Assembly (NCBI GenBank): GCA_016868665.1 | Contig: VGGK01000009.1 | Coordinates: 1-64,000 of the forward strand | DNA: 64,000 nt | Source of the DNA: Chlorobiota bacterium | GTDB lineage: Bacteria; Bacteroidota; Chlorobiia; Chlorobiales; Chlorobiaceae | Reading direction: 5' to 3' | Part shown: positions 4,307 through 7,092 of the stretch, in pieces | How the letters are laid out: every line of letters begins with the position of its first letter | Position numbering within the stretch: the first letter of the stretch is position 1 | Translations under genes and position numbers: made by a program | Notes under the pieces: model-generated | What the model was told of the DNA's origin: nothing | Database searches by the model: none | What the model saw: only the letters and a program-made list of their open reading frames with translations

Positions 4307-4518
4307 GGGTGCTGGTTATGATGAGGAAAACAAGCTATTTTAATTATAAGGTGTATTTTATATAGCATTGATTTAAATATACAAGGCTTTTTATGTTTTC
4401 GTGCGATAGAAAACCTCTCCACAGCTATTTTCGCAGGAAAGCCTTTGCGGAAATTGTTGCCGGTTATGAATCGGCTCGTTGACCGGAAATACCGGCAAAG
4501 AGAAACCGGGGTAAGGCG

Positions 4519-4583
4519 CTTAATCGACGTACTCGACAAACCTTTCGAAATCCTCGCTGGGGGGAAGGATGATGGCTCCGGAG
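4519..4583 (-). pseudogene. 3' remnant of a third 2[4Fe-4S] ferredoxin gene
   Basis: On the minus strand these bases encode [20 protein letters not shown] followed by a TAA stop. That is the exact C-terminal pattern of the two intact ferredoxins to the right (…[15 protein letters not shown] and …[15 protein letters not shown]). The conserved upstream part, including all cluster-binding cysteines, is missing. Homology stops at about 4583, just before the first toxin-antitoxin operator at 4588. The differences from both neighbours indicate a distinct paralogue and not a fresh copy. The simplest reading is that arrival of the HipBST module removed its 5' part. Confidence 0.75.
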
Positions 4584-4587
4584 GATT

Positions 4588-4605
4588 TATACCTGAAAGG
4601 GTATA
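4588..4605. promoter_or_regulatory. HipB-type operator O1
   Basis: TATACC-N6-GGTATA, a perfect 18-bp palindrome. The layout (TATAC-N8-GTATA) is the same as the E. coli HipB operator TATCC-N8-GGATA. It is the first of three sites at a 41-bp period upstream of the HTH gene. Confidence 0.75.
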
Positions 4606-4628
4606 AATTTATTGTTTTTACTTGTTGT

Positions 4629-4646
4629 TATACCCGAAAAGGTATA
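4629..4646. promoter_or_regulatory. HipB-type operator O2
   Basis: TATACC-N6-GGTATA, the second perfect 18-bp palindrome, exactly 41 bp after the first. Only the six central bases differ from O1. Confidence 0.75.
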
Positions 4647-4669
4647 GATTAGCTATAAACCATACACGG

Positions 4670-4687
4670 TATACCCGATCAGGTACA
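4670..4687. promoter_or_regulatory. HipB-type operator O3, overlapping the leader
   Basis: TATACC-N6-GGTACA, 41 bp after O2, with one mismatch in the right half-site. It ends 9 bp before the HTH gene start codon, where bound repressor would block transcription start or early elongation. Confidence 0.7.
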
Positions 4688-4696
4688 ACAGGAATC

Positions 4697-4903
4697 ATGA
4701 AGGATATCGCTGAATTTGTCCGCGACAGGCGAAAAGCCCTGGGCATGACCCAGCCGGAACTGGCAGAAAAGGCCGGTACGGGTCTTCGTTTTATCCGTGA
4801 TCTTGAACAGGGAAAAAAAACATTGCGGATGGACAAGGTGAACCAGGTGCTTGCCCTGTTCGGGTTTGTACTTGCGCCTGTCAGGCCGGAGAGGGAGGCA
4901 TAG
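4697..4903 (+). CDS. hipB: HipB-like HTH repressor/antitoxin
   Basis: A 68-residue Xre/HTH_3 DNA-binding protein, the likely autorepressor of the toxin-antitoxin operon. The helix-turn-helix covers about residues 14-38 (MTQPELAEKAGTG then FIRDLEQGK). I start it at the ATG at 4697 because it directly precedes the domain and lies just after the third operator; an upstream TTG at 4622 in the same frame would put the operators inside the gene. The stop is 3 bp before the next gene, so translation is probably coupled. By family, HipB proteins dimerise and bind 18-bp palindromes like the three upstream. Confidence 0.88.
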   Translation: MKDIAEFVRDRRKALGMTQPELAEKAGTGLRFIRDLEQGKKTLRMDKVNQVLALFGFVLAPVRPEREA

Positions 4904-4906
4904 CGT

Positions 4907-5230
4907 ATGCAAAAAGCCGAAATACGGTACCTTGACCGAACTGCGGGCTGGTTGATTCAGGATGAAGAGGGCTATCATTTTCTGTATGATCAGCCATACC
5001 TGGATTCGAAGGAAGCCAGACCGGTAAGTCTGACGCTCCCGTTGCGGGCTGCTGCATATTCGAGCAGAACCATGTTTCCTTTTTTTGACGGATTGATACC
5101 CGAAGGGTGGCTGCTTGCCGTTGCCGAAAGGAACTGGAAGCTCGATCCGCGGGATCGTATGGGCCTCTTGCTGAACTGCTGCAGGGATTGCATCGGGGCG
5201 GTGAGTGTACATCCTGTAATCATGGAGTGA
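4907..5230 (+). CDS. hipS: HipS-like antitoxin (HipA N-terminal subdomain as a separate protein)
   Basis: This 107-residue protein matches the N-subdomain 1 that opens HipA kinases (Couple_hipA), here as its own gene. It carries the family signature FFDGLIPEGW at 59-68. In the HipBST system of enteropathogenic E. coli, HipS is the neutralising antitoxin and inserts a Trp (W65) into the kinase pocket; W68 sits at the equivalent place, which I infer from the shared PEGW motif. It lies 3 bp after hipB and 4 bp before the kinase gene, giving the order B-S-T. It could also be read as a hipA split by frameshift, but both open frames are clean and the kinase starts with its own conserved N-terminus. 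Confidence 0.87.
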   Translation: MQKAEIRYLDRTAGWLIQDEEGYHFLYDQPYLDSKEARPVSLTLPLRAAAYSSRTMFPFFDGLIPEGWLLAVAERNWKLDPRDRMGLLLNCCRDCIGAVSVHPVIME

Positions 5231-5234
5231 GCCG

Positions 5235-6191
5235 ATGGATCGTCGCTGTCTTTATTGCTATGAGCCTCTGGCCTCCGGAGAGGGTGATTTCCATCGGAAG
5301 TGCAGCCGGAAAATGTTCGGAACGCCTCTCCCTCCAGAGTTACCCTATGATGAAAACCAGCTCGACGAGCTCGCTCTGGAGGTCATCCGGAGCCAGACCG
5401 CCATTACCGGAGTGCAGCCGAAACTGTCGCTGCATCTGGAACCGGCCGGAAAGGCTCATGCTCCACAGCGATTCACCATTGTCGGCCTGTGGGGAGGGTA
5501 CATACTCAAACCCCCTTCGCAGCGATTCCGGCAGTTGCCGGAAATAGAGGACCTGACGATGCGCATGGCTGAAGCGGCGCGTATCGATACGGTTCCGCAC
5601 ACCCTGATTCGCATGCGGTCGGGAGCCCTTGCATACGTGACGCGCCGTATTGATCGTACAGGGAAAGGCAAGCTGCACATGGAGGATATGTGCCAGATCA
5701 CCGGACGTCTCACGGAGAATAAATATCACGGTTCATATGAACAGATAGCGAAAGCCATACATCGTTACTCTGCAAATCCGGGTCTCGATGTCATCAATTT
5801 TTTTGAGGTGGTGCTGTTCTGCTTTCTTTCCGGAAATGCGGATATGCATCTGAAGAATTTTTCACTGATCGATATCGAAGCAAAAGGTGGCTACAGCCTT
5901 GCCCCGGCCTATGATCTCGTCTCGACAGGACTGGTTATGCCTTCCGATAAGGAAGACCTGGCCTTGACGCTTGACGGAAAGAAAAAAAAGATCACGCTGA
6001 ACGATTTCAGAGCGGCTTTCGGCGTCTTGACGATTGACGAGGTGGTTCAGGAACGAATGTTCAGGAAGTTCAGAAATGTTCTGCCTCTTTGGGATCTGTT
6101 GATAGAAAAGAGTTTTCTTGACCATGAAAATCAGGCGGCCTACAAGGAGCTGATCAGGAAAAAATGTCACCAGATCCGGCTGGATGCGTGA
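5235..6191 (+). CDS. hipT: HipT-like serine/threonine kinase toxin
   Basis: A 318-residue HipA-type kinase lacking N-subdomain 1, the hallmark of HipT. E. coli HipT phosphorylates tryptophanyl-tRNA synthetase; the target here is unknown. Visible motifs are the Gly-rich loop AITGVQPK (56-63), ATP lysine K92 (YILKPPS), catalytic D203 in GNADMHLKN, and metal-binding D227 in LAPAYDLVS, so the kinase looks active. The two autophosphorylated serines of E. coli HipT correspond to A56 and T58, leaving one phosphorylatable position. The N-terminus has C5-x2-C8 and H20-x2-C23, a zinc-knuckle-like arrangement. It is the last gene of the operon, and the minus-strand ferredoxin gene ends 55 bp beyond it. 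Confidence 0.9.
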   Translation: MDRRCLYCYEPLASGEGDFHRKCSRKMFGTPLPPELPYDENQLDELALEVIRSQTAITGVQPKLSLHLEPAGKAHAPQRFTIVGLWGGYILKPPSQRFRQLPEIEDLTMRMAEAARIDTVPHTLIRMRSGALAYVTRRIDRTGKGKLHMEDMCQITGRLTENKYHGSYEQIAKAIHRYSANPGLDVINFFEVVLFCFLSGNADMHLKNFSLIDIEAKGGYSLAPAYDLVSTGLVMPSDKEDLALTLDGKKKKITLNDFRAAFGVLTIDEVVQERMFRKFRNVLPLWDLLIEKSFLDHENQAAYKELIRKKCHQIRLDA

Positions 6192-6246: not shown

Positions 6247-6561
6247 TCAATCGACGTATTCGACGAACCTTTCGAAATCTTCCGGGCGGGGCAGAGTGAT
6301 GGCTCCGGAGGGGCACACCGGTTCGCAGCGGGTGCAGAGCACGAGGCAGTTGTACGGGTTGGCCACGGTCATTTTCGGGCGGCGCACCACGCCGTCGCTC
6401 TCGTAAGCCGCTCCGGGTTCGAAGACACCGGGACGACAGAGGTCGGCGCAGGCTTCGCATCCGTTGCAGAGTTCCGCATCGATAACGGGAAACCAGGCTA
6501 TCTCTTCGCGCGGCGCAAGCAGGCGCTTCTTTTTCTTTGAGGGTGAGGGGGAATTGCTCAT
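6247..6561 (-). CDS. 2[4Fe-4S] ferredoxin-like protein
   Basis: A 104-residue electron-transfer protein. Cluster-binding cysteines are C32, C35, C38, C42 and C72, C76, C79, C83. The second motif has the unusual spacing CX3CX2CX3C. The pieces RLLAPREEI before the clusters and [11 protein letters not shown] at the end are shared with the next gene and with the remnant at 4519. It is much longer than the classic 61-residue Chlorobium ferredoxins, so it is a separate family. It follows its paralogue by 27 bp and both lie downstream of alaS on the same strand. The redox partner is unknown. Confidence 0.88.
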
Positions 6562-6588: not shown

Positions 6589-7092
6589 TCAGTCAACATA
6601 CTCGACATACTTCTCGAAATCCTCTTTCGGCGGAAGTTTTATGGCGCCGGAGGTGCAGATGGGTACGCAGCGGTCGCAGAGCACAAGGCAGTTGTAGGGA
6701 TGGGCGACGAGGAATTTTGGCCGGTGAATGCCTTCGGGATCGGGTGGGCCGGGCTCGAAAACGCCCGGCTTGCAGAGTACCTTGCAGTCGGCGCAGCCGT
6801 TGCAGAGGTCGGGATTGATGGTGGGAAACCACGGTATCTCTTCGCGCGGCGCAAGCAGCCGTTTTTTTCGTTTGAGCGCAGGCGGCTGCTGGCTCTTTTC
6901 GGGCGCCTTGTGGTGGACAAGCACGCTTTCCACCTCTTTTTTCCATACTCCTTCGGTATCAACCGATTCGTCCTGGCATTTCTGCATGGCGCGGGACTTC
7001 AGCGCGAGCCGCAATGAACGAACCGGCCTGAAGAGGCATCCGTCGCACGAGGGCTTTTCGCAACGCCCGAAAAAACAGTCAAAAACAAGCAT
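6589..7092 (-). CDS. 2[4Fe-4S] ferredoxin-like protein with Cys-rich N-terminal extension
   Basis: This 167-residue paralogue of the downstream gene has clusters bound by C97, C100, C103, C107 and C135, C139, C142, C146. It carries about 70 extra N-terminal residues, opening with C6-x4-C11-x4-C16-x2-C19 ([14 protein letters not shown]). That could hold another metal site or be a structural zinc knuckle. A charged linker (about 40-80) joins it to the ferredoxin core. The gene starts 21 bp after the alaS stop, so cotranscription with alaS is likely. The start is supported by the conserved-looking Cys segment, but internal Met36 is an alternative. Confidence 0.82.

Follow-up and report, generated by a model that had tools for sequence, protein, structure and literature searches.

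A predicted HipB operator array with 40/41-bp spacing upstream of hipBST in Chlorobia and Bacteroidota, and similar site pairs in viral contigs

The hipBA module of E. coli K-12 encodes a full-length HipA toxin together with its repressor HipB, and is preceded by four palindromic sites of the form TATCC-N8-GGATA at spacings of 28, 39 and 28 bp. HipA molecules on neighbouring operators reportedly dimerise in such a way that the active site is blocked. In HipBST modules HipA is split, and the small Couple_hipA protein HipS is the equivalent of HipA N-subdomain 1 and serves as the antitoxin in the characterised systems. HipB is necessary and sufficient for repression of the E. coli O127 hipBST promoter; low-level expression of hipBST or hipBT represses it, and hipB alone needs high expression. 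In the Legionella hipBST module the DNA ahead of hipB holds three HipB-bound sites of 18 nt at even distances, with inverted repeats of 6 nt and two of the sites asymmetric, and this operator motif is reported to be absent from the E. coli O127 hipBST promoter (PMC10653801). Homologues of the Legionella type are reported to be widespread in Chlorobiota and Bacteroidota (PMC10653801).

The window, that is, the whole stretch of 64,000 nucleotides from a Chlorobiota bacterium analysed here, carries hipB, hipS and hipT consecutively and separated by gaps of 3-4 bp (Table 1), and its HipT lacks N-subdomain 1, as is typical of a three-gene HipBST system. The closest solved relative of HipT is the Legionella protein (2e-49), the E. 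coli O127 type being a much poorer match (4e-16), and HipS likewise finds its best match in Legionella HipS, HipS(Lp). Since both proteins are nearest to Legionella and HipB scores above the TIGR03070 cut-off, the module is, judging from its protein sequences, a HipBST of the Legionella type and not of the E. coli type, and HipT is predicted to act in the window organism as a toxic kinase that is neutralised by HipS. The matches returned by PADLOC were all weak. The DNA is Chlorobium-like, and the closest named contigs belong to metagenome-assembled genomes of Chlorobium sp. and Pelodictyon luteolum.

Table 1. Coordinates of the hipBST genes, the predicted operators and the E. coli-type pairs
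Feature	Position	Strand	Sequence	Remarks
Distal HipB operator (predicted)	4588-4605	+	TATACCTGAAAGGGTATA	exact TATACC-N6-GGTATA, 0 mismatches; slot -109 also occupied in closest relatives
Middle HipB operator (predicted)	4629-4646	+	TATACCCGAAAAGGTATA	0 mismatches to TATACC-N6-GGTATA
Overlapping fourth match	4656-4673	+	TAAACCATACACGGTATA	1 mismatch; 27 bp past the middle site, 14 bp ahead of the proximal site
Proximal HipB operator (predicted)	4670-4687	+	TATACCCGATCAGGTACA	1 mismatch
hipB	4697-4903	+		68-aa helix-turn-helix repressor; TIGR03070, above family cut-off
hipS	4907-5230	+		107-aa Couple_hipA protein
hipT	5235-6191	+		318-aa HipA_C-type kinase toxin (by family)
E. coli HipB-type pairs, 27/28 bp, usually without hipB	L382-L501 (viral contigs); L502:4418-4463 and L503:4040-4085 (E. 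coli prophages)			

The 3' end of a ferredoxin-like gene is duplicated just ahead of the operator array (4516-4584), with the corresponding stretches at 6247-6310 and also at 6589-6653, and an intact ferredoxin-like gene follows hipBST at 6247-6561 on the - strand. Contig L032 has the same ferredoxin-like arrangement around hipBST, and the module looks as if it had been inserted into, or had replaced part of, a tandem ferredoxin array.

The DNA ahead of hipB is AT-rich and contains three copies of the palindrome TATACC-N6-GGTATA, which an earlier note on this DNA had placed at 4588, 4629 and 4670, the third with one mismatch. Re-derivation yields the same positions and mismatch count, an exact 41-bp period and, as that note had stated, nine bases between the end of the third site (4687) and the ATG at 4697-4699. 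The fourth, overlapping match was not in its list; in the upstream scan of hipB homologues this match is confined to the window genome and its two closest relatives, which makes it doubtful as an operator. The window holds five matches with at most two mismatches where 0.46 are expected, a number that none of 100 shuffles reaches. Across the entire 2.38-Mb genome six places match with no more than one mismatch, four of them in the array upstream of hipB.

The decisive argument against chance is comparative, and comes from the homologous hipB loci. About 100 loci with hipB homologues were fetched and their upstream DNA was scanned for sites with at most two mismatches in 12 positions; 66 of them, from Chlorobia, Bacteroidota and a few other groups, form a non-redundant set in which the HipB proteins are less than 90% identical. 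Two to four sites are present at 64 of the 66 loci (three in 37, two in 16 and four in 11, with one site in 2), and 112 of the 123 adjacent spacings measure 40 or 41 bp (51 and 61 times, respectively), while dinucleotide shuffles of the same loci yield 0.036 sites per locus, with no locus reaching two. Even among 15 loci whose HipB proteins are less than 70% identical, the spacing is 40 or 41 bp in 26 of 30 cases, and the DNA between the sites is near random there (41% identical versus about 35% for shuffled gaps). The spacer inside the operator is non-random, with a preference for C-G-A-W-A-R that mostly keeps the same orientation toward hipB (100 versus 25). The search of other genomes that the earlier note had proposed as a check, with absence from close homologues as an outcome that would speak against it, thus finds the arrays ahead of close and distant homologues alike, in agreement with its prediction that the sites are operators of the hipB that follows; its spacing of about four helical turns is conserved as well. 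The location of the proximal site 9 bp from the start codon is usual in relatives without being universal, and in several of them the nearest good site lies at about -62 to -67. The best conserved slot in Chlorobia is the middle one, at about -59 to -70.

A scan of 296 genomes of the phylum points the same way. Pairs of period 41 with at most three mismatches occur in 34 genomes, directly upstream of hipB in 33 and upstream of a hipT fragment in one (G132), and the reversed pattern gives 0 pairs at period 41 in the same 296 genomes. When exact pairs are sought with the gap free between 15 and 31, all ten places found are at hipB and all have a period of 40 or 41. In G132 (L225:1157-1808) a degraded hipBST has left its operators and the hipT fragment behind, and hipB is no longer recognisable.

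Because every pair in these genomes lies at hipB or at a hipBST remnant, the array is very probably the autoregulatory operator of a Legionella-type hipBST toxin-antitoxin module, at which HipB dimers would bind, touch their neighbours and block the promoter. Each 18-bp palindrome would be occupied by one HipB dimer, which HipS-HipT is expected to join, and the 40/41-bp period would hold neighbouring complexes at a fixed distance and roughly on one face of the DNA, where contact is possible; the bound dimers may loop or stack, as the earlier note proposed. The combination of even spacing with drifting inter-site DNA argues for such contact, and a dimerisation of the toxin at neighbouring operators like that of HipA could apply to the window module by analogy.

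An alternative that we regard as rather improbable is that the sites bind HipB independently, the even spacing being inherited and without any cooperative role. Intermediate occupancy was thought possible from the Legionella gel shifts (PMC10653801) and the spacing does vary between HipB clades, both of which would fit independent binding, but the 40/41-bp distance has persisted between strongly diverged HipB proteins across near-random DNA and recurs in viral pairs that were scanned with a free gap. That the palindromes are RNA or DNA hairpins (terminators or attenuators) rather than protein sites is highly improbable: a 6-bp stem is possible at each site, but the arm sequence is fixed and not merely its pairing, the 40/41-bp period would have no explanation and the linkage in bacterial genomes is to hipB only. 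Chance repeats, for which the AT-richness of the intergenic region might speak, are refuted by the shuffles, the 66 loci and the 296-genome scan, and their probability is negligible.

If the array is an autoregulatory operator, its proximal sites would cover the core promoter and exclude RNA polymerase. The -7 element of Bacteroidota is TAnnTTTG. At 31 of 55 loci from Bacteroidota and a few other non-Chlorobia a -7-like TAnnTTT[A/G] contains the start of the proximal operator, a position that, counting outward from hipB, only 1 of 53 second and 2 of 43 third operators share at non-Chlorobia loci. Operator base 2 is changed to G, completing TAnnTTTG, in 11 of 55 proximal sites but in only 1 of 53 and 2 of 53 of those lying farther out. 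The proximal operator therefore overlaps the promoter in Bacteroidota. The same -7 overlap is absent as a pattern in Chlorobia (1 of 11 loci), and a scan of the window for a sigma-70 consensus promoter found none; both results count against the promoter-block model, the former in Chlorobia specifically. In this group the right arm of the well-conserved middle operator could instead form part of a -10 element, for which TATAGA at 4643-4648, made up of that arm and the bases next to it, is a weak and tentative candidate.

How, then, does the array compare with the operators described so far? The earlier note had seen a parallel to the E. coli HipB operator, which does not hold for the layout: the two share only the location upstream of a repressor gene hipB, palindromes of 18 bp and a TATNC core, and an operator of the E. 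coli hipBA type was rejected on account of the TATAC core and the 41/41 spacing, in contrast to the four TATCC sites and the full-length HipA toxin of K-12. Legionella hipBST is the closer parallel, with the same module and three even sites, although its gaps of 53 bp (71-bp period) compare with 22-23 bp in the TATACC arrays and the likeness rests on the published description rather than on a motif alignment (PMC10653801). Y4mF-type hipBA loci encode a HipB of the same family and also have two to three evenly spaced palindromes, yet these differ in motif and period, TTTCCC-N4-GGGAAA at 48-49 bp in five alphaproteobacterial plasmid loci (L229-L232 and L234), and most of these modules have a full HipA toxin. 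Position 34 in the recognition helix of HipB is arginine in the TATACC type and valine in three aligned HipBs of the TTTCCC type, and R34/V34 is a candidate specificity residue for the choice of operator. Spacing is constant within a HipB clade and differs between clades, and since the other values (49, 71 and 28/39/28) are not all whole helical turns, an arrangement on the same face is no general rule. Given that Legionella hipBST already has three even HipB-bound sites, the principle is known; the TATACC motif, the 40/41-bp spacing and the depth of conservation appear to be unreported, a search of the available literature having found no description of the TATACC array or its spacing.

The same motif occurs in viral DNA. 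When 2.9 million viral contigs are scanned blind for two exact sites, 68 contigs turn up at gaps of 20-26 and 89 at gaps of 1-31; the reversed motif, the one control motif scanned in this collection, yields 0 pairs. Periods of 41, 40 and 42 are found in 49, 18 and 1 contigs, respectively, and a separate 27-bp class in 16. Of the 68 contigs with period 40-42, 67 have no hipB in the stretch examined, and the remaining one, L153, is bacterial-looking and carries hipB followed by hipS and hipT. The pair is present in 43 of 43 whole records, and most of these contain no other site with at most one mismatch. Its spacer and flank preferences resemble those of the hipB arrays. The adjacent genes are diverse, including those for a head maturation protease, a guanylate kinase, a helicase, an exonuclease and a distal tail protein. 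Host links come from a few named relatives: those nearest to four phage groups infect Nonlabens, Flavobacterium or Cellulophaga, and a weak comparison for a fifth group pointed to Bacillus. The pair is missing from the Nonlabens phage P12024S, which is related to one of the pair-bearing phages, and a short-query search of named phages with the pair gave no usable match.

In two families the pair is present in some members and absent from others. In a terminase-linked contig family identified by protein similarity the pair directly follows the terminase stop codon and is present or absent among close relatives; in its most diverged members, L365 and L373, which were not selected by motif, 11-12% of arm positions and 38-43% of other positions differ from the remaining members (p = 0.04 and 0.02 as single comparisons). 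In the L122 family, substitutions within the 3' end of a reading frame create the pair; since it is lacking in most relatives, the pair is not universally kept. Only 13 of 216 viral site-strands start in a -7-like element, unlike the proximal hipB operators, and repression of a phage gene promoter is therefore not favoured. Pairs of the form TATACC-(CTATAG-like)-GGTATA with a 27-bp period in the viral contigs L196-L216 do not have the CGAWAA spacer, and this class is perhaps made up of sites for a different regulator. Viral pairs of TTTCCC-N4-GGGAAA, found in three contigs of one identical sequence, are uninformative.

Pairs of the E. coli-type motif are present in at least 120 viral contigs; among the matches listed there are 103 distinct pairs, and the period is 28 in 85 and 27 in 26. 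The 27/28-bp pairs (at least 111 contigs) are mostly of enterobacterial prophage type, and 28 bp is also the distance between the two sites in either half of the K-12 hipBA array. A HipB search among the listed contigs found an E. coli-type HipB in L499 only and a weak match to the window HipB in L390, and L418 resembles a hipBA promoter that has lost its hipB. Several pairs adjoin genes for a terminase small subunit or an HNH protein. Flanking DNA, and not the motif, led to the loci in two complete E. coli genomes, where the pair has lysis genes on one side and terminase on the other. Compared with L464, 20 of 20 arm bases are kept there, against 11-12 differences among the 26 other bases.

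The assignment of the viral pairs as HipB-type sites is well supported, whereas binding of host HipB and action as a decoy can be proposed from the sequences more cautiously. It is possible, and we put it forward tentatively, that phages carry orphan pairs whose sequence and spacing correspond to the host's type of HipB, and that these, acting as a DNA decoy or holding platform, bind the complex of host HipB and toxin and so blunt or reprogram the toxin-antitoxin system; the TATACC pairs at 40/41 bp would correspond to phages whose named relatives mostly infect Bacteroidota, and the TATCC pairs at 27/28 bp to enterobacterial prophages. Alternatively, the pairs may not bind host HipB and may instead serve packaging, or a regulator with the same specificity that the phage itself encodes. 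Many viral records are fragments and the regulator search spanned TIGR03070 and HTH_3, which leaves some room for such a regulator, and the enterobacterial prophage pairs examined lie near lysis and terminase genes, where cos signals can lie. We consider this somewhat unlikely, as 3 of 44 whole records contain a TIGR03070 match (including L153, which carries hipBST) and 4 of 30 an HTH_3 match, the genes beside the viral pairs are unrelated to each other, and arms and spacing match the host hipB arrays of two different HipB types.

While the window array is itself a variant of a known principle, it belongs to an operator array common to the HipBST modules of Chlorobia and Bacteroidota, and for part of the HipB family it provides a predictable operator code, made up of motif and spacing, together with R34/V34 as the candidate specificity residue. 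The orphan viral pairs, if confirmed, would be the new element, a DNA-level counterpart of the phage mimicry of toxin-antitoxin parts, and with them it becomes possible to test directly, also in laboratory strains of E. coli, whether Hip kinases act against phages.
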